Source: Oscillospiraceae bacterium (GTDB lineage: Bacteria; Bacillota; Clostridia; Oscillospirales; Acutalibacteraceae). Taken from it: 21,977 nucleotides of DNA. Made by a program: the position numbers and the translations under genes. The stretch's first letter is position 1; each line of letters starts with the position of its first letter. The notes under the pieces were generated by a model that saw only the letters and a list, made by a program, of their open reading frames with translations, was not told where the DNA came from and made no database searches. Shown in pieces: positions 5,637 to 20,806 of this stretch. Where the stretch lies: the NCBI GenBank assembly GCA_003486665.1, contig DNGF01000143.1:5619-27595 (forward strand). Direction: 5' to 3'.

Positions 5637-6473
5637 ATGGTTGTTTCTTCTGCAAGGCTCATGAAACGAGCCGAAAAAGAGAATTACGCTATTCCGGCAT
5701 TTAACATTGATAATCTTGAATCGGCAATGGCGGTTTCGGAGATTATGCACGAGATGCGAACTCCGGTAATCGTTCAGATGATTCCGAGAACGCTCAATTA
5801 CGGCGGAGTTGCAATTTATCCCGCCATGATGCGTGAGCTTATGGCTGACTGTCCGGTTGATTATGCTCTGCATCTTGACCACGGCAGCAGTTTAAGTCTT
5901 GCCAAAAAGTGCATAGCCGGAGGCTTTTCATCCGTTATGTTTGACGGAAGCCTCATGCCCTTTGAAGACAACGTGAAGTTCACAAAGGAAGTCACTGATT
6001 TCGCCCTCCCGATGGATGTTTCCGTTGAAGGCGAGCTTGGCACGATCGGCGGCAAGGAAGAGGGCGATACCGATCTTGAAGCAAGCTATACAAAGGTCAG
6101 CGAAGCCGAAGAATTTGTCAGAAGAACGAACGTAAGCACATTGGCAATCGGCGTCGGTACAGCTCACGGCGTATACAAGGGAATGCCGCACATCAACGTT
6201 GAGCGCATTAAGGAAATTCATGCTGCAATCGACACCCCGCTTGTTCTCCACGGCGCGTCAGGACTTTCCGATGAGGTTCTCAAGGACTGCATTGCCGCAG
6301 GTATCACAAAAATTAACTTTGCAACAGAGCTTCGCCAGGCATATACCAACGGAATCAAGGCTGAATTCGCAAAGGATCCCGATGTTTTCGACCCGAAGGT
6401 TTATATGAGAGGCGCAATTGATAATATAAAGGAAGTCCTTAGGCACAAAATTAATATTTGCTATAATATCTGA
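5637..6473 (+). CDS. Class II ketose-bisphosphate aldolase, GatY/KbaY-like
   Basis: This 278-aa zinc-dependent aldolase cleaves ketose 1,6-bisphosphates to DHAP and an aldehyde phosphate. HLDHG (79-83) supplies the catalytic D81 and zinc ligand H82; VEGELG carries E131 and E133; GTAHG gives H177 and LHGASG gives H205. The C-terminal KINFATELR (about 225-233) and the ending MRGAIDNIKEVLRHKIN resemble tagatose-bisphosphate aldolases (GatY/KbaY: KVNVATEL, MRVGMDAMKEVVRNKIN) more than Bacillus FbaA (KINVNTEN). Fructose-bisphosphate, tagatose-bisphosphate or another DHAP-forming substrate remains possible. A GAAGGTG ribosome site precedes the ATG. The gap after pgsA is 39 bp and a PI-PLC-like gene follows after 13 bp. 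No sugar kinase or transporter is nearby. Confidence 0.9.
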   Translation: MVVSSARLMKRAEKENYAIPAFNIDNLESAMAVSEIMHEMRTPVIVQMIPRTLNYGGVAIYPAMMRELMADCPVDYALHLDHGSSLSLAKKCIAGGFSSVMFDGSLMPFEDNVKFTKEVTDFALPMDVSVEGELGTIGGKEEGDTDLEASYTKVSEAEEFVRRTNVSTLAIGVGTAHGVYKGMPHINVERIKEIHAAIDTPLVLHGASGLSDEVLKDCIAAGITKINFATELRQAYTNGIKAEFAKDPDVFDPKVYMRGAIDNIKEVLRHKINICYNI

Positions 6474-6480
6474 GGAAGTG
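6473..6480 (+). promoter_or_regulatory. Ribosome binding site fixing the PI-PLC-like start
   Basis: AGGAAGTG overlaps the aldolase stop codon and lies 6 nt before ATG 6487. An in-frame GTG at 6478 would sit inside this ribosome site, so ATG 6487 is the better start. Confidence 0.7.
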
Positions 6481-6486
6481 AAAGAA

Positions 6487-7389
6487 ATGATTTATTCCGA
6501 ATGGATGTCATATATTAAAGACGATGTTAAGCTTTGCAACGTTGTCATGCCCAGCGCACACAACGCAGGCAGCTTCAAGATGAAGCCTATCGCCTGCTGT
6601 CAGGACGGGGATCTCTCTCAGCAATTTGATTACGGTATCCGTCATTTTTGCGTTCGTATTGATACGGACAAAAACGGACAAATCGTTTTCTGCCACGGCA
6701 TTACAAAGGGCTTGCCTTTTGAACCGGAAATGAAAAAATTCCGCGAGGTAATGGACGCGCATCCGAGCGAGTTCTTTATTCTCGATCTCAGAGAATACCA
6801 GCCTCAGAAGCTCGGACCGTTTAACCTCAGCTTCCATGCCGACCCTAAAAAGGTTGATGAAATTCTTGAAAGGACAATCGAACCGTCAAAATACGCATTT
6901 ACCGATTTTGAAAATATCGGCGATGTTACAATGGGCGATATGAGAAAATCGGGTAAGCGTTACATAATGATAAATTACTGTGAGGAATACAAATACAGTG
7001 TCAACTGTCCTCACATTCTTCCTTGGGAGAAGAAACGTCACGGCAAGCACGCTCATGAATTTGTTACCGAAGCAACCGACTTTTTCGACACGAACGACAC
7101 AAGCGGTTTTTACTGGTTCCAGACTCAGCAGACGCCGAATCTCGGAACAGATATCGGTGTTGTCTTTCCGAGAAAGCTTGATAAAGCCTTACGCTGGCAC
7201 TTCAAGGCGCTTATTAACACAATAGCCAACACGCCGAGATACCTTGCGCGCGCAAACATAATCGCCGGTGATTTTATGACCGAGGATTTCTTTAAAGTCA
7301 GGGAAATTCTTAATCTTAACCTGAACAAAAACAATGTCATTGAAAGTAAGCGTGACGAATACAAGCAAAGGCTGAAAACCTGCACATAA
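6487..7389 (+). CDS. PI-PLC X-domain-like phosphodiesterase, no signal peptide
   Basis: This protein is 300 aa from ATG 6487 (303 aa if GTG 6478 is used). The bacterial phosphatidylinositol-specific phospholipase C fold is indicated by MPSAHNAGS, giving the general-base H25; by GIRHFCVRID (about 51-60), matching the usual G-[IV]-R-x-x-D-[IV]-R segment; by FCHG, giving the second catalytic H70; and by FILDLREYQ about 30 residues later. Family enzymes cleave phosphatidylinositol or GPI to diacylglycerol and a cyclic inositol phosphate. Two points are odd. The Asp of the usual D-x-R is Cys here (C-V-R), and there is no signal peptide although most bacterial PI-PLCs are secreted. It ends the recA-to-aldolase gene run. 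Catalytic activity and substrate are uncertain. Confidence 0.8.
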   Translation: MIYSEWMSYIKDDVKLCNVVMPSAHNAGSFKMKPIACCQDGDLSQQFDYGIRHFCVRIDTDKNGQIVFCHGITKGLPFEPEMKKFREVMDAHPSEFFILDLREYQPQKLGPFNLSFHADPKKVDEILERTIEPSKYAFTDFENIGDVTMGDMRKSGKRYIMINYCEEYKYSVNCPHILPWEKKRHGKHAHEFVTEATDFFDTNDTSGFYWFQTQQTPNLGTDIGVVFPRKLDKALRWHFKALINTIANTPRYLARANIIAGDFMTEDFFKVREILNLNLNKNNVIESKRDEYKQRLKTCT

Positions 7390-7398
7390 AAGCTACAA

Positions 7399-7429
7399 AC
7401 CGGACTGCCGATTAATTCGACAGTCCGGT
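7399..7429. terminator. Bidirectional hairpin between convergent genes
   Basis: ACCGGACTG (7399-7407) pairs with CAGTCCGGT (7421-7429), extended inward by a C-G/G-C pair after one mismatch. It sits in the 44-bp gap between the convergent PI-PLC-like gene and ymxH. T-runs are weak on both sides (tttt of the minus strand; aaaatta on the plus), so efficiency may be moderate. Confidence 0.65.
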
Positions 7430-7433
7430 AAAA

Positions 7434-7694
7434 TTATATTCTGCCCTTTGGGACGGTTAGTTCGCAATTAACAAGTATTGTGTCCTCGCCTATTACATCA
7501 ATATCCTCCCAGGGAATTACAATATCATCGCTTTTCCCGAACACGCCCATTATCTTTCCTTTTCCGTAAATTATAATTGAAACAAGACGTCCTGTATTAA
7601 TATCCAGCTCCACATCGTCAACATTTCCTACCCTTGTTCCATTAAGCTTACATATCACTTCTTTATTCCTAAGCTCGGCTATAGAACAACCCAT
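7434..7694 (-). CDS. YlmC/YmxH family PRC-barrel protein
   Basis: This 86-aa protein is a single PRC-barrel of the YlmC/YmxH family found in spore-forming Firmicutes. Recognisable elements are the N-terminal SIAELRNKEVI, the G-x-R-x-G-x-V-x-D-V-E-L-D turn (about 19-31), a G-rich central loop with FGKSDDIVIPW (about 52-62) and IGEDTILV (68-75). Its function is unknown; it is listed as sporulation-associated mainly by phylogenetic distribution. GGAGAG lies about 11 nt before the start. It is transcribed against its neighbours, convergent with the PI-PLC-like gene and divergent from the ceramidase gene. A possible minus-strand promoter (-10 TACAAT at 7742-7747) would overlap the -35 of the ceramidase promoter, but its -35 is weak. 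Confidence 0.88.
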   Translation of the reverse strand: MGCSIAELRNKEVICKLNGTRVGNVDDVELDINTGRLVSIIIYGKGKIMGVFGKSDDIVIPWEDIDVIGEDTILVNCELTVPKGRI

Positions 7695-7742
7695 ACAAAA
7701 ATCAGCTCTCCTTTTCGGTAATTTTTCACAATGCTGTTTGTA

Positions 7743-7771
7743 TTGTAAAAAAACCTATTTTGTGATAAAAT
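7743..7771 (+). promoter_or_regulatory. Promoter of the ceramidase-alkaline phosphatase unit
   Basis: TTGTAA (7743-7748) and TAAAAT (7766-7771) are spaced by 17 bp and lie 37 bp before the start codon, which has an AAAGGTG ribosome site. This is the only promoter candidate seen before the alkaline phosphatase gene. Confidence 0.6.
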
Positions 7772-7807
7772 TATATCTGTAAATTTTATTCAGAAAGGTG
7801 ATATATT

Positions 7808-9499
7808 ATGAAAAAAGTAATATCATTGCTTCTTTGCATTGTTATGACATTTACCGTTTTCAGCGTTGCCCTTACAAGCAATGCTTTCGCGGCAGACAAT
7901 GCAGCAAATGAATCCGTTGCGGTTGCAAGCATCGATTTCAGCAGCATCAAAATTCCAAAATCATGGGATGAATTGGGCGGCATGATGCTTAAATCGCTCT
8001 ACAACCTCGCAGATCAAATTATTGATGCGCTCGTAAAGGGAATCAATAAAAACATTTCCTCTATTAAATTCGAGAAAAAAGAGAACTTCACAAGCGATAT
8101 GTTCTTTGAGGGCATGGAGGATTACCTCAATGCTCCTGCATCAAACGCAGTCTGGAGCCTCGGCTACGGCAGCGCTTCACTTCAGACCGGAGATGAGCTT
8201 GACGGCAAGCACTATGTCGGCGGCAGCCTTTCTTTCCCGAAGTCAAAGGCAGCAACAGCTATCTACGATGATCAGCGCGTGCGTGTTATCGCAATTAATG
8301 ACGGCAGCGGCAGAGGAACTCTTGTCTTTGCGGTTATTGACGGCTTCGGAATATCAAGCACCGATGTCCGCGGTATCCGCAAGGAACTCGCAGACTTTGC
8401 AAAGGCAAATAACATTGTCGGAATTAATATTTCTGTTCTTCACCAGCACAGCTGTGTTGATACCTTCGGTATGAACGGTGACCTTGTGAAGATGATTTTC
8501 ACAAACCCGGCTCTTAACAGGATCAACAACACCTTCGGCACAAACTATAAGCTTCTCAACGGTCAGAATGCAAGCTTCATGAAGCACCTTTATGCCGTAA
8601 CCGTTGAATCTGTAAAGGAAGCTGTTAACTCAATGACAACCGGCAAGATGTATTATTCTGAAATTGAAGCCGGCGAATATATCCGTGATAAGCGCGAACC
8701 CATGGTCTGCGACACGAAGATTCATCGCTTCCGCTTTGTTCCCGATAACGGCGCAAAAGAAACGTGGCTTTGCAACATGGCTATCCATGCAGTCGGCAAC
8801 GGCGCGGCAGGAACTGAAATTACAGGCGACTATCCGTACTACATTGAGCAGGAAGTCAACAAAGCGGGCGCAAACTTCATTCAGATTCAGGGTGCAGAGC
8901 TTGCAATCTCCTCAAAGCACGACAGTCTTAATCTTCCCGAAGGAACACCCAGACTTGAATCTCTCAAGATTTACGGTACAACACTCGGCAAGCTCATTGT
9001 AGAGTCCAAAGATGCCGAAACAGAGGTTGCTCCCCTCCTCAACTACAGAATGAAGGAATACTACGTTCCGGTAACGAACCAGATTCTTGCATTCGCAGGT
9101 AAGCTTGGCGCACTCACCAATACCGTTGTTGCAACAGACGACGACAACAATGTGCTTGAGGTTGCAACAGAACTCGGTTACCTTGAAATAGGCACAAAGC
9201 TTGCAGTTGCAATTATCCCCGGTGAGCTTGAACCGGCAATCGCTTACGGCGGATATCTTGACGCTGACCACTCATGGACCGGCACCGATTTTGATTATCC
9301 GTCACTTCAGGATATCGTCGGAACAGACAAGGAACTTCTTGTGTTCGGTCTTATGAATGACCAGATCGGTTACATACTTGAAGACAATGACTACAGCAGT
9401 ATCCTTTCGGGTGTAAACGAAGAGATCGTTGCAACAGGTAACGTTGCAGGTTCTACAACGATAAACGCTTTCAAGGAGCTTATGGAGTCAATCCACTGA
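7808..9499 (+). CDS. Secreted neutral/alkaline ceramidase family enzyme
   Basis: This 563-aa protein has a clear Sec signal peptide (MKKVISLLLCIVM..., predicted cleavage after AFA at 28). The neutral ceramidase family is recognised from its dispersed zinc-site motifs in order: LHQHS (H212, H214; family THTHS), NMAIHAVG (H327; family FAVHGTS), QGAELAISS (361-369, at the position of the family GDVSPN serine segment), IIPGELEPA (E473; family PGEFTT) and GLMNDQIGY (514-522). Family enzymes are zinc amidases that split ceramide into fatty acid and sphingosine. It is shorter than characterised members (about 640-700 aa) and the serine segment is divergent, so the acyl-amide substrate may differ. 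An insertion of about 80 residues after the signal peptide has no visible homology. It has its own promoter and precedes an alkaline phosphatase gene. Confidence 0.78.
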   Translation: MKKVISLLLCIVMTFTVFSVALTSNAFAADNAANESVAVASIDFSSIKIPKSWDELGGMMLKSLYNLADQIIDALVKGINKNISSIKFEKKENFTSDMFFEGMEDYLNAPASNAVWSLGYGSASLQTGDELDGKHYVGGSLSFPKSKAATAIYDDQRVRVIAINDGSGRGTLVFAVIDGFGISSTDVRGIRKELADFAKANNIVGINISVLHQHSCVDTFGMNGDLVKMIFTNPALNRINNTFGTNYKLLNGQNASFMKHLYAVTVESVKEAVNSMTTGKMYYSEIEAGEYIRDKREPMVCDTKIHRFRFVPDNGAKETWLCNMAIHAVGNGAAGTEITGDYPYYIEQEVNKAGANFIQIQGAELAISSKHDSLNLPEGTPRLESLKIYGTTLGKLIVESKDAETEVAPLLNYRMKEYYVPVTNQILAFAGKLGALTNTVVATDDDNNVLEVATELGYLEIGTKLAVAIIPGELEPAIAYGGYLDADHSWTGTDFDYPSLQDIVGTDKELLVFGLMNDQIGYILEDNDYSSILSGVNEEIVATGNVAGSTTINAFKELMESIH

Positions 9500-9512
9500 A
9501 CATAACACAGCC

Positions 9513-9547
9513 CAGCCGTTGAATTCATTTTCAACGGCTGTTTGTTT
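9513..9547 (+). terminator. Terminator or attenuator between ceramidase and phosphatase genes
   Basis: CAGCCGTTGAA (9513-9523) pairs perfectly with TTCAACGGCTG (9530-9540) around a 6-nt loop and is followed by tttgttt (9541-9547). The AAGGAGG ribosome site of the next gene begins at the very next base. The remaining space holds no promoter, so the downstream gene probably depends on readthrough. Confidence 0.8.
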
Positions 9548-9554
9548 AAGGAGG
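9548..9554 (+). promoter_or_regulatory. Ribosome binding site fixing the alkaline phosphatase start
   Basis: AAGGAGG is followed 5 nt later by ATG 9560. An in-frame TTG at 9542 lies upstream of this site and inside the terminator T-run, so it is not the start. Confidence 0.85.
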
Positions 9555-9559
9555 ATAAA

Positions 9560-10678
9560 ATGTTAAAAGGAATTAAATCATTTATTTCAATCATAACAGC
9601 CGTCCTGCTTCTGGCAGGCACCATGCTCGGATTTTATGGCACAGACGGAACAAAAAACGAATACAAAACCTATAAAAATGTTATTCTCATGATTGGTGAC
9701 GGAATGGGATTCAATACAGTTGAGGCGGCAAAAAACAGATACGGTATTAACGAGCTGCCGATGGAAACTTTTCCTGTTCACAGCCAATCAAAAACCAGAA
9801 GCGCCTCCAACGAGATAACGGACAGCGCGGCAGGTGCAACCGCTCTTTCCTGCGGAGTCAGAACCTATAATAATGCTGTCGGCGTCTACCCGTTTGCGCC
9901 GTTTGCGAAGAAATTTAACACACCGAAATCTCTTACGGAATTAGCAAAGGAAAACGGCAAGTCGGCAGGTGTTGTTACAACGGACAAAACAAGCGGCGCA
10001 ACTCCTGCGTCATTTTCGGCACATTCATTTATCAGACAGTTCGAGCCTGACATCTCTGTCGATCAGATGCGTTCGGATCTCGATCTTATTTGGGGATCAA
10101 AGAGTACCACGGTCACAAAGCTTGGCTGCAAGCTCGGCGGATTTGAACTCATTACAACCTCTGCGGAAATGAATGCGCTTCAACTCGGAACAAAGTCCTT
10201 TGCACAGTTTGACATTGACGCTTTTGCCAACGTGACAAATGATAACGGCAATCCTTACCTTTCCGACATGACAAAAAAAGCAATTGAGCTTCTCAGCAAC
10301 AACGATAACGGATTTTTCCTCATGGTCGAAGCGGCACACATTGACAAGTTTTCGCACAAGAACATTCTTGAAGGCTCAACAGCGCAGGTTATAGAATTTA
10401 ATAAAGCCATTCAGGTTGCCTATGATTTTGCGAAGCAGGACGGTGACACGCTTGTTCTTGTAACGGCGGATCATGAAACCGGCGGAATCACATATAACGA
10501 ATCAACAGGCGAATATTATTACACAACAACAAGCCATACGGGAGTAAACGTCCCCGTTTATGTTTCCGCAACCGATGCCGGCTTTATCACAGGTGAAGCT
10601 TACGACAATTACTGCATAAGCACTCAGCTGGCACGAGTCATGGGATATGACAAATCGCAATTCCCCAAGACAAAATAA
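9560..10678 (+). CDS. Secreted alkaline phosphatase (PhoA family)
   Basis: This 372-aa protein starts with a hydrophobic signal sequence (about 8-26) without a clear AxA site, so it may be a signal anchor. PhoA-type active-site elements are complete: D47 (MIGDGMG), the phosphorylated serine S89 (TDSAAGAT), T148 (GATPAS), R159 (HSFIRQ), E257-D262-H266 (VEAAHIDKFSH), D304-H305 (ADHETGG) and H326 (SHTG). Spacing of E257, D262 and H266 matches E322, D327 and H331 of E. coli PhoA. The family's D153 position is Gly. It hydrolyses phosphomonoesters outside the membrane. It lies 60 bp after the ceramidase gene, so phosphate release from lipid head groups is a reasonable role. A phosphate-starvation (Pho) role is the alternative; no Pho box was recognised. 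Confidence 0.93.
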   Translation: MLKGIKSFISIITAVLLLAGTMLGFYGTDGTKNEYKTYKNVILMIGDGMGFNTVEAAKNRYGINELPMETFPVHSQSKTRSASNEITDSAAGATALSCGVRTYNNAVGVYPFAPFAKKFNTPKSLTELAKENGKSAGVVTTDKTSGATPASFSAHSFIRQFEPDISVDQMRSDLDLIWGSKSTTVTKLGCKLGGFELITTSAEMNALQLGTKSFAQFDIDAFANVTNDNGNPYLSDMTKKAIELLSNNDNGFFLMVEAAHIDKFSHKNILEGSTAQVIEFNKAIQVAYDFAKQDGDTLVLVTADHETGGITYNESTGEYYYTTTSHTGVNVPVYVSATDAGFITGEAYDNYCISTQLARVMGYDKSQFPKTK

Positions 10679-10694
10679 AATAACCGCACAGCAA

Positions 10695-10730
10695 AAAGGA
10701 CTGTTCTGAAAAAACTCAGAACAGTCCTTT
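10695..10730. terminator. Bidirectional terminator, 15-bp perfect stem
   Basis: AAAGGACTGTTCTGA (10695-10709) pairs perfectly with TCAGAACAGTCCTTT (10716-10730) around a 6-nt A-rich loop. T-runs follow on both strands, and it serves the convergent alkaline phosphatase and DUF4474 genes. Confidence 0.92.
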
Positions 10731-10742
10731 ATTCACTTTAAT

Positions 10743-11951
10743 TTATGCGGTCTGCGCCCAGCACCATGAAACATCCAAGCCATCGCGGCTGGAAACAACG
10801 CCCTTTTTATTTGCCGCTTTAATAAACAATTCGGCAAACTCCTCATTCGGGAACTCTATCGTTCCCTTTGCCGTGAGATATTTTGCGTCATAAACCTTTT
10901 CTTCAATCGAAAAACCGATAACCCACCAATGAAGCTGTGCCTCGCGGACGAAGATTCTTCTGCTGCCCTGGAAAAGCTCAAGGCTCATGACCATCATATC
11001 CTCGTCAGGCGCACACTTGAATACTGTTGTCCAAATCTTCTGCTCCGGGCGGTTGTAAATTCCGATTTCTGCTCCGTTTGAGATCCAATAAATTCCTTTC
11101 CAGATCTGGAAGAGCCAATCCTTGCCGCCGTAAGTAAGATAGATTCGCTTTGTATCATAATCGTAAAACGTGAGGTTTGCAAGAATGTCATATGCTATGC
11201 AGAAACCGAAATATCTCTGCCAAGTATCCTTTATGGCATAGATTACATAATCATCGCCGTCAAGATTGAAGCCGAGAACTCCTCTTTCGTTTTTTCTCTT
11301 AAGTTCATGGGTTTCGGTGTCATATATAAAATCGGATTTAATTTTTTCCGATTTGCCGTTTTTATAATAGATTACAATAAAAACATTGTAAACGGTAGGA
11401 TCCTTTTTATTCTGATCCGCATCGAGCGACATATGGTCGATTCTGAGAAGATACATTCTCGCAAAATCAACAAAAAGTCCTGAAAGATTCTTGCCCTGCT
11501 TATAAAGCTCGTTTGCCTTATCTTTCATTATCGGCTCAAGAGTATCAACGTCAATATTCAAAAGCTCGCATACTTTATCGGACCCCTCTGTAAAATCAGG
11601 AAGCGAATTTGCAATTTTTATAACGTCAAGCGTTCCGCCGCTTTTACGCGTCCACCCGGTGAAAATGTCATTCATCACTCCGTTTACTTCAACCCTGATT
11701 TTATTTTCATTGATAAGGTTAAATCCGAAAACCTTTTTAAAAACAGCATTGATCGTATCGACAAATTCAAAGAACTGCTGCGTTGTCAAATGATCCTTGC
11801 CCTCGTTGTAGCCCGGATCCGACTCATCATAAACGATGTCGCCCGACGGAATATCGGCATCTGTCTTTGCATTTACAAAAGCCGTACCTGTTCCGAGAAC
11901 GATAGTCATTGTTAAAATAACTGCCAACACTCTTTCCGAAATCTTTTTCAT
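10743..11951 (-). CDS. Secreted DUF4474 domain protein
   Basis: This 402-aa protein has a signal peptide (hydrophobic 8-26, likely cleavage after VNA at 28). Residues about 225-345 resemble DUF4474: GFNLDGDDYVIYAIKDTWQR, YFGFCIAYD, then TYGGKDWLFQIWKGIYWISN followed by GAEIGIYNRP, that is, the W-QRxFGY, K-D-W-x-x-Q-x-WKG-x-Y and G-A-E-I-G-I-Y signatures. The function of DUF4474 is not known; the exported form suggests an envelope or extracellular role. Residues 55-180 are helical and rich in charged residues with no family recognised. It has AAAGGGG as ribosome site and a long upstream regulatory region with a LytTR-like direct repeat. It is convergent with the alkaline phosphatase gene and divergent from rny. 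Confidence 0.82.
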   Translation of the reverse strand: MKKISERVLAVILTMTIVLGTGTAFVNAKTDADIPSGDIVYDESDPGYNEGKDHLTTQQFFEFVDTINAVFKKVFGFNLINENKIRVEVNGVMNDIFTGWTRKSGGTLDVIKIANSLPDFTEGSDKVCELLNIDVDTLEPIMKDKANELYKQGKNLSGLFVDFARMYLLRIDHMSLDADQNKKDPTVYNVFIVIYYKNGKSEKIKSDFIYDTETHELKRKNERGVLGFNLDGDDYVIYAIKDTWQRYFGFCIAYDILANLTFYDYDTKRIYLTYGGKDWLFQIWKGIYWISNGAEIGIYNRPEQKIWTTVFKCAPDEDMMVMSLELFQGSRRIFVREAQLHWWVIGFSIEEKVYDAKYLTAKGTIEFPNEEFAELFIKAANKKGVVSSRDGLDVSWCWAQTA

Positions 11952-12041
11952 AAAATACCCCTTTCACTTTCTCCGTTAAAAAATATAAAAGGCAACACCG
12001 CGCAATTGAGGTGTGCGAATTACCATAAATATAATTATGAC

Positions 12042-12071
12042 TTACATCGTATAATATTATAACCTATGTAA
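12042..12071. repeat. Dyad overlapping the DUF4474 promoter -10
   Basis: TTACAT (12042-12047) and ATGTAA (12066-12071) are inverted around the self-complementary TATAATATTATA (12050-12061). The arms are slightly off-centre (2-nt and 4-nt spacers). The dyad covers the minus-strand -10 element, a typical place for a repressor operator. Confidence 0.5.
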
Positions 12072-12082
12072 AAATAATGCAA
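12054..12082 (-). promoter_or_regulatory. Promoter of the DUF4474 gene
   Basis: On the minus strand TTGCAT (12077-12082) and TAATAT (12054-12059) are spaced by 17 bp; an alternative -10, TATAAT (12056-12061), gives 15 bp. It lies about 105-130 bp upstream of the start codon, leaving a leader of about 95 nt in which no clear structure was seen. Confidence 0.6.
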
Positions 12083-12092
12083 CCGTTTTGGC

Positions 12093-12121
12093 ACGAACGG
12101 TCTTTTTTCGGCACAAACGGC
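12093..12121 (-). promoter_or_regulatory. LytTR-like direct repeat upstream of the DUF4474 promoter
   Basis: On the minus strand GCCGTTTGT (12113-12121) and ACCGTTCGT (12093-12101) form a direct repeat of period 20, each followed by GCC. The AgrA/LytTR site consensus is [TA][AC][CA]GTTN[AG][TG], repeated about 21-22 bp apart; the proximal copy matches 9 of 9 and the distal copy 8 of 9. The proximal copy ends 10 bp before the -35, as in LytTR-activated promoters. No LytTR regulator gene is in the window. On the plus strand ACCGTT...AACGGT plus a T-run could be misread as a weak terminator. Confidence 0.5.
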
Positions 12122-12282
12122 TTGGTTTTAAATAAAATATTCAAATAACAAGCCGTCCGGTAAGTGTTCTTTACTATACAATAAAAAAACAGATTTGTCA
12201 AACAAAATTACAGAATTCTGTTCACACATGATAAATAATATAGATAAATTTAGTACAGTTTATTGAAATCGTATAATACATC

Positions 12283-12311
12283 TTGACAGGAGTGCCGAAA
12301 TGTATTAAAAT
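12283..12311 (+). promoter_or_regulatory. Strong rny promoter
   Basis: Consensus TTGACA (12283-12288) and TAAAAT (12306-12311) are spaced by 17 bp. Transcription should start near 12318, giving a leader of about 125 nt before the TTG start. In that leader GGCGG (12362-12366) and CCGCC (12377-12381) could form a small hairpin. The remainder of 12130-12280 is A/T-rich with no feature recognised. Confidence 0.82.
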
Positions 12312-12426
12312 AGTACAGATGATTTATAGTTTGCCGGATTATAATATCATCAACCAGACAAGGCGGAAACGAACAGCCGCCGGTCGAAAATAATTAATGA
12401 TTTTTTACTTTATTAAATTTTAAGAC

Positions 12427-12434
12427 AGGAGGTG
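12427..12434 (+). promoter_or_regulatory. Ribosome binding site supporting a TTG start for rny
   Basis: AGGAGGTG is a near-perfect anti-16S match located 10 nt before TTG 12445. No ATG or GTG lies in frame nearby, and the TTG start reproduces the normal RNase Y N-terminus. Confidence 0.75.
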
Positions 12435-12444
12435 CATTTATACT

Positions 12445-14007
12445 TTGTTATCAATTAAAATATCACTGTTCATAGTGATCATAGTTGCCTGTGTTGTTGC
12501 CGCTGCGGCTGCAGGAGTTGCTATCGGTATTGTATATCGCAAAAAGGTTGCCGAAGCTACTATCGGTTCCGCTCAGCAGGAAGCCGCCAGAATAGTTAAC
12601 GATGCCGTTTCAAAGGCAGAGTCCAAGAAGAAAGAATCTATTCTCGAAGCTAAGGATGAAATCCACCGTCAGCGTAACGAGCTTGAAAAAGAGCTTCGCG
12701 AAAGAAGAAGTGAGGTTCAGCGTCAGGAGCGCAGAATTTCTCAGAAAGAGGAAAGCCTTGACAGAAAGACGGAAAACATCGAGCGCAAGGAAGAACAGCT
12801 CAACAACAAGATCAAGGATGCCGAAAGAAAGGCTGAAGAGGTCGAGTTGGCAAGACGCAGCCAGGTTGAAATTCTTGAAAAAATTTCAGGCTTCAGCAAG
12901 GAACAGGCTAAGGACTATTTGCTCAAAACTCTTGAGGGTGATCTTGTTCACGAGAAAGCTGTCAAGATTATGGAATATGAGCAGAAAACAAAGGATGAAG
13001 CAGACGAAAAAGCTCGCGAGATTATCGCAACGGCAATTCAGCGTTGCGCCGCAGATCACAGTGCGGATGCCACCGTTTCGGTCGTTGCTCTGCCAAACGA
13101 TGAAATGAAAGGCCGCATAATCGGCAGAGAGGGACGTAATATCAGAACTCTCGAAACAATCACCGGAGTTGACCTTATTATTGACGATACACCGGAAGCA
13201 ATCACAGTTTCATGTTTTGATCCCGTTCGCCGTGAAATTGCAAGACTTACTCTTGAGAAGCTCATTGCAGACGGCAGAATCCATCCGACAAGAATCGAAG
13301 AGCTTTATGAAAAATCAAAGCGCGAGGTTGAACATACAATTAAGCAGACGGGTGAAAGAGCCGCTATTGACGCAGGCGTCAACGGAATCCACCCCGAACT
13401 TATCAAACAGCTCGGCAAGCTGAAATACCGTACCAGCTACGGTCAGAATGTTCTCAACCACTCCCTTGAGGTTTCCTACCTCGCCGGTCTTATGGCTGCC
13501 GAACTCGGAGCCGATGTCAAGACGGCAAAGCGTGCAGGTCTTCTCCATGATATCGGAAAAGCACTTGATCACGAAATGGAAGGTTCTCATATTGAACTCG
13601 GCGTTGAATACGCAAGAAAATATAAAGAGAACGAAAACGTTGTTCATGCAATTGAAGCTCATCACGGCGATGTAGAAGCAAGAACAATCGTTGCTTGCCT
13701 CGTTCAGGCGGCTGACGCAATATCCGCTGCAAGACCGGGCGCAAGAAGAGAAAATCTTCAGAACTATATCAAAAGGCTTGAAAAGCTTGAAGAGATCACA
13801 AGCTCATTCCCATGCGTTGAAAAATCATATGCCATTCAGGCAGGCCGTGAGGTTCGTATCATGGTTAAGCCGGAGGCAGTTTCAGATGATATGATGGCTC
13901 TTGTTGCCAGAGATATCGTAAAGAAAATTGAGGATGAACTGGAGTATCCCGGACAGATCAAGGTCAACGTTATCCGCGAAAACCGCGTTGTAGACGTTGC
14001 AAAATAA
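12445..14007 (+). CDS. rny: Ribonuclease Y
   Basis: This 520-aa protein has the same length as B. subtilis RNase Y, the membrane-anchored endoribonuclease that initiates mRNA turnover. Domain order is an N-terminal transmembrane helix (about 7-30), a long Glu/Arg/Lys-rich coiled coil (about 45-185), a KH RNA-binding domain with its GxxG loop IIGREG (225-230) and the HD nuclease domain. H368-D369 (LLHDIGK) fall at the same positions as the catalytic pair in B. subtilis, preceded by H339 (LNHSLEV). The start is TTG, supported by a strong AGGAGGTG site and by alignment of the N-terminus. It has its own consensus promoter and a hairpin terminator. In many Firmicutes rny lies next to recA/cinA; here about 9 kb separates it from recA. 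Confidence 0.97.
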
Positions 14008-14039
14008 TTTTTTGAAATAGAGTAAAACTGAAAGTAATC

Positions 14040-14072
14040 AGGCGTTTCGGAAGTTTTCCGAAACGCCTTTTT
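14040..14072 (+). terminator. rny terminator
   Basis: A perfect 13-bp stem (AGGCGTTTCGGAA at 14040-14052 with TTCCGAAACGCCT at 14056-14068) has a 3-nt loop and is followed by a T-run. It separates rny from the convergent GH29-like gene. Confidence 0.92.
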
Positions 14073-14114
14073 AATGCTTTAATTTTTTCTGCTTTACATC
14101 CGATCCCACCTGAA

Positions 14115-15461
14115 TCAGTAAACCTCAAAGGTGGAAATCGTTGCAAAATCCCTCGTTTTCTCAATGACAAGCTTCAGCCGCCTTGCATCCATCGTCGGCA
14201 AAAGACAAATTTTCTTTCTTCCGATCGTCGTACCCGCGTATATTTTATGCCACTTCTTATCAAAGAAATAATACAGCTTAAATTTTTCGACCTGCTGACC
14301 CGTTTCTATATTCTCACCGAGTACGACCTTGTTAATACTTTTTACCTCGCCCATATCAAGCGTAATAACGCTTTTTTTCGATTTAGGCGCACTCTTAAAA
14401 TACGATTTGCCCGAATTAATAAATCTTGCCGAATGAAGATCATCACTGTGACCCTCGTCCTCAAAAGTTCCGTTTTCCGCGTGATTCTCCTTAAATTCAA
14501 TTCCGAGCTGAACTCCGAGCGTTACGAGATGCTCAACATCAACCTTATCAATTTTTCCTGTGTGTGACGGAGAAATATTGAGTATCAGCGAACCGTTATT
14601 GCCAACGGATTTAAAATAAACCTCAAGCGCCTTTGAAAGCACCTTAACGTCAAAGTTCTCCGTTTCATGGAAAAACCAGCCCGGTCTGAGCGAGATATCG
14701 GTAATTGACGGGAACCATACAAGCTCTTTCGCCCTTTTTATCTTGCTTCTGCTTCCAAGGTCAGGTTCAACAAGCTTCTTTGACGGTGCATTGTTAATCA
14801 GATCCTTGGGAACAACGCTCCATTCACTCGTCCTGCTTACTCCGACATGATTGCCGCACCAGCGTATATCCGGACCGCAGTTGCAAATCATCGCATTCGG
14901 CTGATATTTGCGTACCGTGTCATAATACCTCTGCCAGTCATAGTTCTGGCTGCCGCTGTTGTCGCGTTCAAACCATACGCAGAAAATATCGCCGTAATCG
15001 GTGCAAAGCTCGGTAAGCTGATTTACGAAGAAATCATTATATTTTTCCGTGCCGAATGTCGGCTCGTGCATATCGTAAGGTGAAAGGTAAATTCCGAATT
15101 TTATCCCCTGGGCGGCGCACTCATCCGCAAGCTCTTTTACAATATCTCCCTCTCCGTCTTTCCACGGGGAATTTTTTACGCTATGTTCGGTATACTTGCT
15201 CTGCCAAAGGCAAAATCCGTCAGAAAATTTGCAGGTAAGAACTATTCCTCTCATCTTTGCGGACTTTACCGTGCTTACCCACTGCTTTGCTGAAAAATCG
15301 GCAGGCTTAAAATATTTTTCGGGTTCACGACCCGTTCCCCACTCCGTGTTACAGAAAGTATTCATTCCGAAATGAATAAATGCCATGAATTCGGTATTCA
15401 TAAAATCTATCTGTGCTTTTGACGGCACAACCCTGTTGGCTCTTTCAATATAATCAGGCAT
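14115..15461 (-). CDS. GH29 alpha-L-fucosidase-like protein with altered active site
   Basis: This 448-aa protein has no signal peptide. The GH29 TIM barrel (about 15-310) is recognised from FIHFGMNTF (28-36), DGFCLWQSKYT (81-91), GIYLSPYD (123-130), VWFE (162-165), YDWQRYY (174-180) and CGPDIRWCGN (195-204). The C-terminal 120 residues look like a F5/8-type-C-like beta-sandwich (NSGKSYFKS, VITLDMGEV, ending ATISTFEVY). Key residues are replaced. The nucleophile Asp of the family WFDG is E165. The acid/base Glu of GNE (E217 in Bifidobacterium AfcB) is H205. The fucose-binding HH of HHDGF is F79-S80. The codons were re-read on the DNA and agree. Fucosidase activity is therefore doubtful. It has its own promoter, divergent from the sphingomyelinase-like operon. 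Confidence 0.82.
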   Translation of the reverse strand: MPDYIERANRVVPSKAQIDFMNTEFMAFIHFGMNTFCNTEWGTGREPEKYFKPADFSAKQWVSTVKSAKMRGIVLTCKFSDGFCLWQSKYTEHSVKNSPWKDGEGDIVKELADECAAQGIKFGIYLSPYDMHEPTFGTEKYNDFFVNQLTELCTDYGDIFCVWFERDNSGSQNYDWQRYYDTVRKYQPNAMICNCGPDIRWCGNHVGVSRTSEWSVVPKDLINNAPSKKLVEPDLGSRSKIKRAKELVWFPSITDISLRPGWFFHETENFDVKVLSKALEVYFKSVGNNGSLILNISPSHTGKIDKVDVEHLVTLGVQLGIEFKENHAENGTFEDEGHSDDLHSARFINSGKSYFKSAPKSKKSVITLDMGEVKSINKVVLGENIETGQQVEKFKLYYFFDKKWHKIYAGTTIGRKKICLLPTMDARRLKLVIEKTRDFATISTFEVY

Positions 15462-15495
15462 AACAACACAATTCCTATCTGAATTAATTTATAAC

Positions 15496-15524
15496 ATTGT
15501 ATCATTTTTGCCGATTAAATGCAA
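15496..15524 (-). promoter_or_regulatory. Promoter of the GH29-like gene
   Basis: On the minus strand TTGCAT (15519-15524) and TACAAT (15496-15501) are spaced by 17 bp and lie about 35 bp before the start codon. Only 18 bp separate its -35 from the -35 of the divergent plus-strand promoter, so one regulator could control both. Confidence 0.7.
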
Positions 15525-15542
15525 TTATTTTTATATATTGGA

Positions 15543-15571
15543 TTGACTGTTTTCGTGATAATTAGTATAAT
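15543..15571 (+). promoter_or_regulatory. Promoter of the sphingomyelinase-like operon
   Basis: TTGACT (15543-15548) and TATAAT (15566-15571) are spaced by 17 bp, near consensus. Transcription should start near 15578, leaving a leader of about 25 nt that contains the GGAGG ribosome site (15589-15593). Confidence 0.85.
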
Positions 15572-15602
15572 TATATTATCTTTATAATGGAGGCAGTGTC
15601 TA

Positions 15603-16706
15603 ATGAAAAGGTATATCAAAATGATTATCTCTTCCCTGCTCGCTCTTGTGCTTATGCTCAGCGTAGGTGCAGCTGCGTTTGCGGAAGACGAGGCAGAAAA
15701 CTCAGCAAAACTTACAATTATTTCTTCAAATGTTGCGGGACTTCCCATTCCGTCAAAATTCGACAAAGACGGCAAGGTTGTTCCGAAAACTCAGAAGATC
15801 ATGGGTGAAATGCTCAACAACAGCGGCATCGATATCATCTGCGTTCAGGAGGATTTCCAGTACCACGCAATTCTTGCAAAGCAGATGACAAATTATCCGT
15901 ATCAGACCTATACAAGCGGCGGTGTTCCGGTCGGTGACGGACTTAACGTTTTCTCCAAGTATCCTATCTACAACATTGAGCGTGTCGAATGGGAAACCTA
16001 TAACGGAATACTTGATGCGGCAAATGACGGACTTACCCCGAAGGGCTTCCTCAAATGCACGGTTGATTTTAACGGTGTTCTCGTTGATGTTTATGACACT
16101 CACCTTGACGCCAACGGTTCACTCGCCGACTGTGCTGCAAAGAAGGCTCAGCTTGAGCAGCTCAAGGCTTACATAAATGAGAATTCAAAGGATATGCCGG
16201 TTGTTATCACCGGTGACATGAATATTGCAATGCACTGCGATATCAATGCCGAATTCTATCCCGTTATGATTGAAAACGGCGGATTCAAGGACGCATGGTC
16301 GGAGTATTGCAATGACGGTGTTTACTTCACAGATCGCCTTTCGGCAGAACAAAATGCCGAATATGAGGCAAAGTTCGGCGGCGGTTATTGGGGTCGCTGG
16401 GATTCCGTTGAGCGCGTTGTTTACCGCAGCAGCAGTAACGTTGAGCTTACCCCGACAGACTTCCGCTATGAGGACTACAACAACCGCGACGGTCACGGTG
16501 CAGTTACAGACCATAACGTTATGATCTGCGAATTGACTGTTACGGCAAACGATTATGTTGCTCCGGCAATCGACCTTAACAAGCAGCAGAAAGAACCGTT
16601 TGCGGACAGAATTGTACGCACGGTTAAGCTCACAGCAAGATGTATTTACAGAATTCTTACCGATCTCATCGCAAAGATCAAGTCGGGCGAAATTACAATA
16701 AAGTAA
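15603..16706 (+). CDS. Secreted sphingomyelinase-C-like phosphodiesterase, copy 1
   Basis: This 367-aa protein has a signal peptide (cleavage likely after AFA at 27). The endonuclease/exonuclease/phosphatase fold is complete: N43 (SSNVAGLP), E83 (CVQEDF), H167 (DTHLDA), D205 and N207 (TGDMNI), D267 (RWDS) and D303-H304 (TDHN). The stretch LTPKGFLKCTVDFNG, then VYDTHLDANGS, follows the B. cereus sphingomyelinase pattern LSNKGF...GTHLQAEDS, and NVAGLP is common in neutral sphingomyelinases. Such enzymes hydrolyse sphingomyelin to ceramide and phosphocholine with Mg2+; other phospholipids or nucleic acid remain possible. The last 35 residues form a basic, hydrophobic tail (RTVKLTARCIYR...DLIAKIKSGEI) outside the catalytic fold that could bind membrane. 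It heads a five-gene operon and is followed by a paralogue. Confidence 0.82.
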   Translation: MKRYIKMIISSLLALVLMLSVGAAAFAEDEAENSAKLTIISSNVAGLPIPSKFDKDGKVVPKTQKIMGEMLNNSGIDIICVQEDFQYHAILAKQMTNYPYQTYTSGGVPVGDGLNVFSKYPIYNIERVEWETYNGILDAANDGLTPKGFLKCTVDFNGVLVDVYDTHLDANGSLADCAAKKAQLEQLKAYINENSKDMPVVITGDMNIAMHCDINAEFYPVMIENGGFKDAWSEYCNDGVYFTDRLSAEQNAEYEAKFGGGYWGRWDSVERVVYRSSSNVELTPTDFRYEDYNNRDGHGAVTDHNVMICELTVTANDYVAPAIDLNKQQKEPFADRIVRTVKLTARCIYRILTDLIAKIKSGEITIK

Positions 16707-16710
16707 GGTG
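16705..16710 (+). promoter_or_regulatory. Ribosome binding site fixing the copy-2 start
   Basis: AAGGTG overlaps the stop of copy 1 and lies 9 nt before ATG 16720. The in-frame GTG at 16708 is part of this site, so ATG 16720, which also begins a canonical MKK signal peptide, is preferred. Confidence 0.75.
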
Positions 16711-16719
16711 TTTGTAACA

Positions 16720-17832
16720 ATGAAAAAGACTTTTAAAAGCATACTCTCGGCTTTGCTTGCAATCATGATGCTTATTTCCGTAGGCACGGCTGCCTTTGCC
16801 GAGGATGAAGAGGCTAACATTACCGAGGGTACTCTTTCGGTTATATCTGCAAATGTTGCGGGACTTCCTATTCCGTCAAAGTTTGATAAGGACGGCAAGG
16901 TTGTTCCGAAAACTCAGAAAATTCTCGGACAGCTTCTCAACGAAAGCGGAGTAGACATAGTCTGCGTTCAGGAAGATTTTCAGTATCATGCAATTTTCGC
17001 GGCTCAGATGGATAAATATCCGTACACTACATACACAAGCGGCGGTGTTCCGGTCGGCGACGGCATGAACATTTACTCTAAGTACCCGATCTACAACGTA
17101 GAGCGTGTTGCATGGGAGGCTTTTAACGGCATTCTCGATGCGGCAAATGACGGACTTACGCCCAAGGGCTTCATGAAATGTACCGTTGACTACAACGGAA
17201 TACTCATAGACCTTTACGATGTTCATTCCGATGCCAACGGCTCTCTTGAGGATTCAAAGGCAAGACACGCTCAGAACGAGCAGCTTGCCGCTTACATTGA
17301 CAAGAACTCGGCTGACCGTCCGGTTATAATCACGGGCGACATGAATGTTTACACCCACACTCAGCAGGGTACGGGGCTTTATGAGATCTTTATCGCCGGC
17401 GAGGGCTTTGACGAGGCATGGACAATGTTCTGCCATGACGGAGTTTATTTTGACCATGACGTTACATGGGAAGAACGCCAGGAGCTTGAGAAAATTTACG
17501 GCGGTGCGCCGTGGGGTCGCTGGGATTCCGCAGAGAAGCTTCTCTACCGCGGCAATTCAAGCGTCAGCTTTGAGGTCACGGACTTCAGATACGATGATTA
17601 TAACGAGCTTGCCGGACAGCCCGTTTCAGACCACAATATGATGGTCTGCAAGCTTAAGGTTACCTCAACGGATTATGTCCGTCCTGAGATTGAGCTTAAT
17701 GTTGAAAAAAGAAGACCTCTTATAGAAAGACTTGTTCACGGCACAAAAATGGTATTCAGATGCCTTAAACTCATTTTCACCGATCTTATTGCAAAAATCA
17801 AGTCCGGTGAAATCAAGTTCCCGACTAAATAA
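16720..17832 (+). CDS. Secreted sphingomyelinase-C-like phosphodiesterase, copy 2
   Basis: This protein is 370 aa from ATG 16720, 13 bp after copy 1 and clearly its paralogue along the whole length (shared FDKDGKVVPKTQKI, TSGGVPVGDG, AANDGLTPKGF and C-terminal TDLIAKIKSGEI). It has a signal peptide with cleavage after AFA at 27. Catalytic residues are retained: N45, E85, H169, D207, N209, D269, D304 and H305. The loop after the catalytic His differs, reading DVHSDA instead of THLDA, and the region near 210-260 is the most diverged, which suggests changed substrate preference. The tandem arrangement, high identity and shared tail point to a local duplication followed by divergence. The ribosome site of the next gene overlaps its stop region. 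Confidence 0.82.
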   Translation: MKKTFKSILSALLAIMMLISVGTAAFAEDEEANITEGTLSVISANVAGLPIPSKFDKDGKVVPKTQKILGQLLNESGVDIVCVQEDFQYHAIFAAQMDKYPYTTYTSGGVPVGDGMNIYSKYPIYNVERVAWEAFNGILDAANDGLTPKGFMKCTVDYNGILIDLYDVHSDANGSLEDSKARHAQNEQLAAYIDKNSADRPVIITGDMNVYTHTQQGTGLYEIFIAGEGFDEAWTMFCHDGVYFDHDVTWEERQELEKIYGGAPWGRWDSAEKLLYRGNSSVSFEVTDFRYDDYNELAGQPVSDHNMMVCKLKVTSTDYVRPEIELNVEKRRPLIERLVHGTKMVFRCLKLIFTDLIAKIKSGEIKFPTK

Positions 17833-17843
17833 AGGAGATTGTT

Positions 17844-18995
17844 ATGCGACCGATCACAACATTCGTCAGACATAATTCAATCAAAGCCATGCTTACCGCA
17901 GAGCAGGGACTGAAAAACGCATCTAAAGGCAAAATAGGCAAAAATCTTTTCGGCGTTGAACCTAAATTTATCGGTACGGACGTCAGAATAATCAAAGAAA
18001 CTGACGATTCCACCTTCATAGCAAAGTGTGACACTAACGGAAAGATCGTCAACAAGCCTTTTAAAATTCTCGTAACAACCGATCTTCATCTTTGCGACGA
18101 TTGGGAGCTTATCAACAAGTCGCTCTCAATGCTCGCAAAGCACGTTGAAGCAGAAAAGCCCGATCTTATTCTCTTTACGGGTGATGTTGTTCTTACCGAC
18201 CACCAGCAGGTTGACTGTATTCAGTTCGGTCGTTTTATGGAAAAAATGGGAATTTATTGGGCATATGTTTTCGGCAATCATGAAGCGAGAGCCGAGAAAG
18301 AGTATCACAAATACTTCATGCTCAAGAACCTCACAAGCTTTCCCCACTGTCTTTCTAAATTCGGCGATCCGTCGCTCTTTGGTTACGGCAACTTTTTCAT
18401 AAATATTCTTTCATCACCGACTTCGATTCAGCAAAGCATTGTAATGCTCGATTCGGGCAGAAATACAAGTCCGACCCATAACGTCGAAAACGGCGCGCCG
18501 GCTGAGCTTAAGGGCTATGACTTCCTTAAAAAAGATCAAATCGACTGGTATAAGAAAAACATTCTTGAACTCGAAAAAGAATACGGCAAGTTTAAGTCTA
18601 TAATGGCTATGCACATTGCGCTTTGTGAGTATGAAAAAGTCATGAAGCAGGATGAAGACGGCAATTACGTACCGACAGGCGAAGCTGAAATTCTCTACGG
18701 AGGAATGTATGAGTCGGTCGGCTGTTCCGAATTCAACAGCGGAATGTTTGATGCCATTAAAGAACTCGGCAGCACCCAAGCCGTTATTGTCGGTCACGAC
18801 CATATTAACGATTTCTGCGCCAAATACGACGGTGTTTACCTTGTTTATGCTCAGTGCGACGGATATAATACCTACACCATGGGTTCAAACTTCGGCTGGG
18901 ATGAAAAAGACTGGATGCAGGGTGTCACAATGATCGACATGAACAAGGACGGCGAAATCAGCTTCAGACAGCGCTTTAACAGAGATTATTTATAA
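17844..18995 (+). CDS. Calcineurin-like metallophosphoesterase, no signal peptide
   Basis: This 383-aa protein carries the full two-metal motif set: D80-x-H82 (TTDLHL), G113-D114 (FTGDVV), G144-N145-H146-E147 (FGNHEA), a later His in AMHIALCEY (about 251-259) and GHDH near 315. About 70 residues precede the catalytic domain, a longer lead than usual, with no hydrophobic segment, so it should be cytoplasmic. Family members are phosphatases or phosphodiesterases of very varied substrates. It follows copy 2 by 11 bp with an AAAGGAG site overlapping the preceding stop. Its place behind two secreted phosphodiesterases suggests it processes an imported phosphorylated product, but this is inference. 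The insertion at about 180-235 is not recognised. Confidence 0.88.
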   Translation: MRPITTFVRHNSIKAMLTAEQGLKNASKGKIGKNLFGVEPKFIGTDVRIIKETDDSTFIAKCDTNGKIVNKPFKILVTTDLHLCDDWELINKSLSMLAKHVEAEKPDLILFTGDVVLTDHQQVDCIQFGRFMEKMGIYWAYVFGNHEARAEKEYHKYFMLKNLTSFPHCLSKFGDPSLFGYGNFFINILSSPTSIQQSIVMLDSGRNTSPTHNVENGAPAELKGYDFLKKDQIDWYKKNILELEKEYGKFKSIMAMHIALCEYEKVMKQDEDGNYVPTGEAEILYGGMYESVGCSEFNSGMFDAIKELGSTQAVIVGHDHINDFCAKYDGVYLVYAQCDGYNTYTMGSNFGWDEKDWMQGVTMIDMNKDGEISFRQRFNRDYL

Positions 18996-19006
18996 GGAGA
19001 TTTTTA

Positions 19007-20806
19007 ATGACGCCATACATACTTAAGAAACATTTAACACGAAAAATTACATTTCTTGAAAAGAACGACCCGCAGATTCCCGCCGCCCTTTTCAGCGCAG
19101 TTAGCAAAGCCCCCGATCTCACCGATTTTCCGTACCCGCTGCCCTCGGCAAAAAGCGATTACACCTGCTCGGCACAGGGCAACAACTCAGTAATGTGGTT
19201 TGGCGGTAAAACGGGAATAACCCGTTACGATCCGAACGGGAAAAGCATTGATGATATAATAATGTACTTCAGCGCACATCGTCACCTTCCGCACCATGCG
19301 GTTGATGCAATGCTTGCCGATGGCGACGACCTCTGGGCTCTCTGCCGTGACAAGGTTGCACACATTGAAATGATTATGCTTACGGCAGAGGAAAAGTCGG
19401 AAATTCTTCTTGACGAAACAAACAAATACGTAATGCGCCGCGGAATGGTAAGCCAGCGCGACCTTAAGGAATGCAGAAATTATGAATCGCGTTACCCTTA
19501 TGCCGCCTGCGACAATGACGGACTTTTCACCTCCGGCTATGCGATCGGAGAAATGTACCGTTACGCAACCCTCAAGGAGAAGCTCGGCAAAGATCATCCG
19601 AGAGTAATTGACGCGAGAAGGAACGCAACAAAGGCGTGCGAAGCCTGTCTTCTTTTAATGTATATCCACGGAAGACCTGAGGGCTTCATCGCCCGTTCAT
19701 ATCACGTTACAGGCGAGCCGATTCCGGATGACGGTATTTTCTATAAAAGAGAAGGCAAAACCGCTCACTGCGTTTTCACAAATGAAGCAAAGAATTGCGG
19801 CAGAGTCGGCGAAGAGGTTCCCTGCGACTACCCCGTTCCCGAAAGACTTGCCGCGCTTTACCGCGATATCGGTTATACTGATGATGACATTTGTTATAAG
19901 GCCGACACCTCAAGCGATGAGGTTACCGGACACTTTCTCCAGATGAAAATCGCACACGATTTCCTTGCCGAGGATGATCCTGAGCTTGACGAAATAATTA
20001 AGGACGCCTGCAAGCGAACAACAAAGCATATAATCGACCACGGCTTTGAGTTCTGCGAGTCTTCCGGCAAGCCGACCACCTGGGCAAAGTGGAGCAAACG
20101 CTACTTTGACAACGATCCCATCGGCTATGTTGACGCTCCGCTCAATTCATCCGAAATGCTTGTATATCTCAAAATAACAATGTATATAACAGGCGAAAAA
20201 GGCATTTGGCAGGAAACATACGATAAGCTTATTGCCGACGGTTATGCCGATCTCGGCGCAAAGCATTATGATCGCTTCTATCAGGGCGCAATGAGAGAAA
20301 GGGTCAATCCCGAAGAGGATCTCATGTACGGCGACAATATGCTCGCACTCATGACATACTGGATGCTTTGCACGCTTGAAAAGGACGAGGCTCTTCTCAA
20401 AAAGTACCGCGCCGCTTTTAAATCATGGAGCGGTCTTATACTCAGAGAACATACTCCGGGTTATGATTTTATGTATAAGCTCGGAATTCCCGATGCAGAA
20501 ATTGATCTTGAAAAGGATGCTAACTGGTTCACCCATTTTGAAACCAACCGTTTTATTTCAACAGTCAATTCTCTTCGTCATGACGTTGCCGTTAAAATCG
20601 GCAGAAATTATGATGAGAAGAGAGAGTTTGAAATTTCCGCCTTGCTGACTCCGAATGAAAGGCACGTTTCAAAATACGACAGAAACCCGTATGATCTCTT
20701 TAAGGGAGAAAATAAAGGAACCTGCGTTGAGAGCTGCTATATTTACACATACGCTTATTGGATAGGCAGATATTACGGATTTATTGACGAGGAGGGACAG
20801 GCATGA
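19007..20806 (+). CDS. Unknown 599-aa protein with propeller-like N-terminal motif
   Basis: I do not recognise this protein as a whole. Residues about 58-125 resemble two-component-regulator propeller repeats: VMWFGGKTGITRYDPNG, then YFSAHRHLPHHAVDAMLADG followed by DDLWALCRDKVAHIE, compared with the usual LWFGT..GLSRYD and F...GLP...V..L..D. Only about one and a half repeats are present, far short of a closed propeller. Residues about 160-590 are mostly helical with many aromatic and acidic residues and repeated W/Y-rich turns (for example TTWAKWSKRYF, GDNMLALMTYWM, YIYTYAYWIGRYY), suggesting an (alpha/alpha) barrel of the kind found in several glycoside hydrolase and lyase families. No signal peptide is present. 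AAGGAG overlaps the preceding stop, and its own stop overlaps the next gene by 4 bp (ATGA). Confidence 0.8.
   Translation: MTPYILKKHLTRKITFLEKNDPQIPAALFSAVSKAPDLTDFPYPLPSAKSDYTCSAQGNNSVMWFGGKTGITRYDPNGKSIDDIIMYFSAHRHLPHHAVDAMLADGDDLWALCRDKVAHIEMIMLTAEEKSEILLDETNKYVMRRGMVSQRDLKECRNYESRYPYAACDNDGLFTSGYAIGEMYRYATLKEKLGKDHPRVIDARRNATKACEACLLLMYIHGRPEGFIARSYHVTGEPIPDDGIFYKREGKTAHCVFTNEAKNCGRVGEEVPCDYPVPERLAALYRDIGYTDDDICYKADTSSDEVTGHFLQMKIAHDFLAEDDPELDEIIKDACKRTTKHIIDHGFEFCESSGKPTTWAKWSKRYFDNDPIGYVDAPLNSSEMLVYLKITMYITGEKGIWQETYDKLIADGYADLGAKHYDRFYQGAMRERVNPEEDLMYGDNMLALMTYWMLCTLEKDEALLKKYRAAFKSWSGLILREHTPGYDFMYKLGIPDAEIDLEKDANWFTHFETNRFISTVNSLRHDVAVKIGRNYDEKREFEISALLTPNERHVSKYDRNPYDLFKGENKGTCVESCYIYTYAYWIGRYYGFIDEEGQA

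Follow-up and report, generated by a model that had tools for sequence, protein, structure and literature searches.

Do the genes for lipid- and phosphoester-cleaving enzymes found within about 13 kb of one Oscillospiraceae contig form a system for the breakdown of sphingolipids? We have analyzed a stretch of 21,977 nucleotides (hereafter the window) from assembly GCA_003486665.1 (contig DNGF01000143.1, C114 in our listing), part of a metagenome-assembled genome of 281 contigs that is 61% complete. The six open frames named there by a first-pass annotation are real: a PI-PLC-like protein, a ceramidase-like protein (cer), the alkaline phosphatase PhoA, two tandem proteins of the endonuclease/exonuclease/phosphatase (EEP) type (eep1 and eep2) and a calcineurin-like metallophosphoesterase (MPE). 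In relatives these genes lie apart and therefore they are probably separate lipid-cleaving tools, several independent gene sets side by side and not a single dedicated gene system. One set would be cer, which encodes a presumably exported hydrolase with a fold like that of neutral ceramidases, another phoA, and the third an operon: the tandem eep1 and eep2, for two presumably exported phosphodiesterases similar to neutral sphingomyelinases, stand ahead of MPE-orf19-gh38, a core conserved in the genus. Outside the cell, at membrane or lipid surfaces, the EEP pair would cut phosphodiester head groups from lipids, with sphingomyelin, ceramide phosphoethanolamine or similar compounds as candidate substrates. 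The ceramidase-like enzyme would cleave N-acyl amides and PhoA could free phosphate from the head-group products, perhaps in that order. If these enzymes act jointly at all, they would do so as a dispersed set and not as one regulated cluster.

The EEP pair and the ceramidase-like protein

Both EEP proteins pass the curated cut-off of the EEP domain PF03372 (36.8 and 40.3 bits against 24.5). Both fall far short of the sphingomyelinase model TIGR03395 of NCBIfam (30.6 and 21.9 bits against 248.2), and for this reason we have not filed them as sphingomyelinase C. When the family profile (set A3, 60 of the 120 listed proteins plus the two of the window) was compared with the PDB, the best match was human SMPD2 (E 2.3e-20), and sphingomyelinase-type chains made up 8 of the 11 matches, including the eight best. 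SMPD2 was also the top fold match of the structure model. Of the presumed catalytic residues, N43, E83, H167, D205, D303 and H304 were conserved in 26/26 sequences, and N207 in 25/26. By profile and predicted fold, eep1 and eep2 are distantly related to the neutral sphingomyelinases.

The case of cer is more indirect. Single-sequence searches with it found nothing, so that its relatives were needed. It matched no curated family model, and Ceramidase_alk (PF04734) was absent even at E 10; of the 34 members of its family, 15 matched this model with E values no higher than 1, the best being 2.1e-9. Among the structures in the fold lists, the sole strong matches of the cer model were neutral ceramidases, the common fold spanning residues 112-563. 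In alignment A1 (34 of 38 cer frames, the window sequence replacing L004, with L011, L013, L017 and the duplicate L070 excluded; L and G numbers are our handles for loci and genomes), H212 was conserved in 34/34, H327 in 32/34, E473 in 34/34 and Y522 in 33/34. These residues align to human ceramidase 4wgk, and we take the two His, the Glu and the Tyr to be zinc ligands. The presumed catalytic serine, placed by eye at S368, was Ser in 8/34 and Thr in 15/34 (either one in 23/34). A search by profile, aimed at distant cer proteins, mainly brought up near-identical ones, and the cer paralogue of L036, compared with the PDB, had a single match, at chance level. A "putative ceramidase", SrfJ, is described in PMC9430895. 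SrfJ belongs to a family other than that of cer.

Thus the first-pass family labels stand plainly for PhoA, and for the EEP pair and cer as distant kin; neither a curated sphingomyelinase nor a curated ceramidase model was matched, and these two labels are drawn from profiles and folds. On that footing a sphingolipid reading of the three proteins is reasonable, and the enzymes would be ordinary in kind, plausible sphingolipid-type hydrolases. The same annotation had counted four exported enzymes. Judged by eye, signal-like N-terminal segments are present in cer and in both EEP proteins and less clear in PhoA; the two structure models (eep1 and cer) show N-terminal helices.

An amphipathic helix is found near one end of cer, of both EEP proteins and of the DUF4474 protein, all with signal-like segments. 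In this test the comparison was with shuffles of the same segment and not with exported proteins of non-lipid function. As such a helix is also present in the DUF4474 protein, the feature may be general in the clade, possibly a surface-attachment trait (7808-9499, 10743-11951 and 15603-17832).

A different reading would limit the likeness to the fold, the EEP proteins being nucleases or sugar phosphatases and the cer-like proteins amidases for other N-acyl compounds. We hold it to be rather unlikely, given the sphingomyelinase-type chains that fill the best profile matches, the ceramidases that alone match the cer model strongly and the amphipathic helices of both families.

Gene order in relatives

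The first-pass annotation had inferred a lipid-scavenging locus from this concentration of hydrolases. We compared 18 genomes of the genus, including that of the window, and the gene neighborhood was not kept, the orthologues lying at separate sites. The order ylmC-cer was found in 7/7 other loci read, from six genomes (L225-L228, L103, L039 and L040, of which L040 and L225 are apparently one contig), and none of the seven had phoA in the 4.5 to 21 kb that were read. The phoA gene occurs in 16/18 genomes, the window's included, and in 15/15 of the others its contig is not that of the cer orthologue (contigs being fragmented). EEP genes are present in 14/18, three by weak matches only. Just two other genomes of the genus, G253 and G409, have a counterpart of eep1 above 50% identity, which stands ahead of MPE in G253 alone.

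Elsewhere the EEP and cer families are also rarely near each other. Among 398 genomes of the family there were 66 EEP genes beyond the window pair (74 rows minus the two of the window and six weak ones, E > 1e-20), and five had a cer gene no more than about 10 kb away, near the roughly 3/66 that we estimate by chance at a density of six cer genes in 2.3 Mb; many of the regions scanned end at contig borders. The five comprise cer-PHP-eep rows in G044 and G163 (one genus), a cer-oxidoreductase-eep row in G013 and two cases about 8 kb apart in G087. As controls, a cer gene was near in 0/15 PI-PLC-like-centered regions (L125 included) and in 0/7 phoA-centered ones (L124 included; these were the top matches, without G056 and G087), numbers too small for a test. 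With a count near the chance estimate and so few controls, we have set linkage aside as proof. The clustering is largely local to this species.

One observation weighs mildly against our preferred reading of independent sets. At least 2 of the 21 other genomes with both genes (G122, with a weak phoA match, being excluded) have cer and phoA within 1 kb, when about 0.3 would be expected by our estimate. These are G056 and G087, whose cer paralogues share about 30% identity with the cer of the window, a mild point for a link.

A PHP-domain phosphoesterase gene adjoins EEP genes at four loci in two genera, and in the genome that holds the window it also adjoins a ceramidase-like paralogue, on a different contig (L098, L130, L114, L136 and L123 taken together).

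Co-occurrence across genomes

Co-occurrence in relatives had been proposed as a check and it holds at the level of genomes. In 150 genomes of the family, 18/18 strongly EEP-positive ones fell within the 27 that were cer-positive (Fisher p 5.9e-17; G121, E 4e-4, was counted as EEP-negative). The pattern follows relatedness. By RecA, 25 of the 27 cer-positive genomes were among the 39 nearest, a cut that we picked after viewing the list. Inside these 39, EEP was found in 17/25 cer-positive against 0/14 cer-negative genomes (p 2.5e-5), with ancestry still mixed in. Of the 144 genomes in which RecA was matched, 50 were placed on a RecA tree. It calls for 15 changes in EEP and 8 in cer, but its supported branches force only one for cer and leave one independent pair. 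Because of this concentration among near relatives and the few supported branches, co-occurrence was also set aside as proof: it is strong but gives no evidence of joint function, and a genome-level link between EEP and cer is possible.

This bears on the reading of the genes as a true sphingolipid breakdown locus, in which the EEP proteins would yield ceramide and phosphocholine, cer would split the ceramide and PhoA would free phosphate from the phosphocholine. The family and fold evidence for EEP and cer, their co-occurrence, the cer-PHP-eep rows of one genus and the cer-phoA neighbors of G056 and G087 are all consistent with it. We nevertheless consider it unlikely, since the genus does not keep the gene order, EEP genes are near cer about as often as estimated by chance, the transcription units are separate and the PI-PLC-like protein and MPE have other partners. 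A chimeric contig is very improbable: the genome is fragmented and incomplete and the gene order of the window was found in no relative read, but in G402 the fucosidase-like gene of the window has an orthologue (75% identity, L226) 0.5 kb after the cer orthologue, a link between the left and right halves, and the order eep-MPE-orf19-gh38 is seen again in G253.

Gene layout and neighboring genes

From position 5637 the row runs class II aldolase, PI-PLC-like protein, ylmC (minus strand), cer, phoA, DUF4474 protein (minus), rny, alpha-L-fucosidase-like protein (minus), eep1, eep2, MPE, orf19 and gh38, so that ylmC, the DUF4474 protein, rny and the fucosidase-like protein stand between the genes under study. 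The labels ylmC and rny are putative names, given outside the family calls. The genes occupy both strands and several units, the latter already stated by the first-pass annotation; cer, phoA and rny are each followed by a terminator-like hairpin (those of cer and phoA are in Table 1). Terminator-like sites number 25 in the region as a whole, where shuffles give 17.7 +/- 4.8, and single sites are therefore weak evidence. A search of the whole window for RNA families and tRNAs found none.

Table 1. Features of the window and their positions
Feature	Position	Strand	Remarks
Class II aldolase	5637-6473		First gene of the span
PI-PLC-like protein	6478-7389	+	Adjoins the class II aldolase; no visible signal segment; judged outside the exported set
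cer	7808-9499	+	Apparently exported, neutral-ceramidase-like fold, 563 aa
Terminator-like hairpin between cer and phoA	9513-9540	+	z -3.70; 2/200 shuffles fold equally well
phoA, alkaline phosphatase	9557-10678 (from its ATG)	+	PF00245, 206.5 bits (cut-off 24.4)
Terminator-like hairpin 3' of phoA	10695-10730	+	
DUF4474 protein	10743-11951	minus	
Promoter-like match 5' of eep1	15543-15571	+	11/12 positions; consensus match only
eep1	15603-16706	+	Apparently exported EEP phosphodiesterase, neutral-sphingomyelinase-like; C-terminal amphipathic helix
eep2	16708-17832	+	Tandem copy, 61% identity to eep1
MPE, calcineurin-like metallophosphoesterase	17844-18995	+	PF00149; no visible signal segment; core of genus-conserved operon
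orf19	19007-20806	+	No Pfam match; 3' of MPE in 7/11 other genus contexts read
gh38	20803-21771	+	Weak likeness to GH38 alpha-mannosidase N-terminal domain; in 8/11 other contexts

PhoA is an ordinary alkaline phosphatase. The PI-PLC-like protein and MPE, which the first-pass annotation had included in the locus, are members of other gene sets, and by eye neither N-terminus has a signal segment. Against the PF00388 X domain the PI-PLC-like protein scores 14.6 bits, under the curated cut-off of 23.1. Its pairing with the class II aldolase (5637-7389) is seen again in three relatives (L079, L080 and L086). MPE is found at 48% identity or more in 16/17 other genomes of the genus, and MPE-orf19-gh38 (17844-21771) is a genus-conserved operon. 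In seven relatives orf19 has 59-66% identity, and against the PDB it gave weak matches only, in a sensor-kinase propeller region. Elsewhere, three genomes (L109, L045 and L110) combine a ceramidase-like gene with genes for a GDSL-lipase-like protein and a PTS-EIIC-like membrane protein, and two of them with an MFS-type gene.

Significance

If the sphingolipid activity is true, processing of sphingomyelin and ceramide would extend beyond the known pathogens to uncultured gut Clostridia, which would thereby alter the lipid signals reaching the host or neighboring bacteria. The host had been called a gut Clostridium, which is narrower than the evidence, because the named relatives of cer come from Ruminococcaceae, Oscillospiraceae, Clostridiaceae and Clostridia bacteria (one from goat rumen). 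Tentatively, an uncultured gut clade of Ruminococcaceae/Oscillospiraceae type may carry dispersed, undescribed sphingolipid-degrading equipment for host lipids or for the sphingolipids of neighboring Bacteroidetes: secreted sphingomyelinases with animal SMPD2 as a closer relative than the sphingomyelinase C of pathogens, and an expanded ceramidase-fold family. The titles and abstract openings searched mention no such locus or enzymes in these bacteria, and print elsewhere is possible. Concrete candidate proteins are now named for the biochemical question. The neighborhood itself is ordinary, and its largely local clustering is a guard against reading a pathway into gene proximity.

Comparison with known systems

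The EEP pair has about 20% identity to human SMPD2 (PDB 8j2f) and to bacterial sphingomyelinase C (2ddr, 2uyr, 7cne), and differs from them in scoring well below the TIGR03395 cut-off and in its C-terminal amphipathic helix. Sphingomyelinase C has a membrane beta-hairpin and SMPD2 a C-terminal transmembrane part. The cer protein has its fold in common with the neutral ceramidases of Pseudomonas aeruginosa (2zws/2zxc) and human (4wgk), and its presumed zinc ligands, conserved in the family, line up with theirs. However, the identity is 12-17%, the PF04734 match of the ceramidases is lacking in cer itself and an N-terminal amphipathic helix is extra; the alignment stops at residue 487 of 2zws, so that the C-terminal domain of the ceramidases is missing.

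Residues 6-120 of the PI-PLC-like protein match Bacillus cereus PI-PLC (2or2, E 2.1e-8), and its H28 and H73 are invariant in 15/15 sequences (set A7 took 14 of the 19 loci L079-L097, leaving out L088, with an internal stop, and the weak L094-L097). In contrast to 2or2, an Asn in place of Asp stands behind the first active-site-like His in all 15, no signal segment is visible and the neighbor is a class II aldolase.

PlcH of P. aeruginosa belongs to another family than the EEP pair. That species combines a secreted phospholipase C/sphingomyelinase (PlcH) with a neutral ceramidase, as may be the case here, and regulation by sphingosine, with the sphingosine-responsive SphR, has been reported in it (PMC5150637, PMC12323605).
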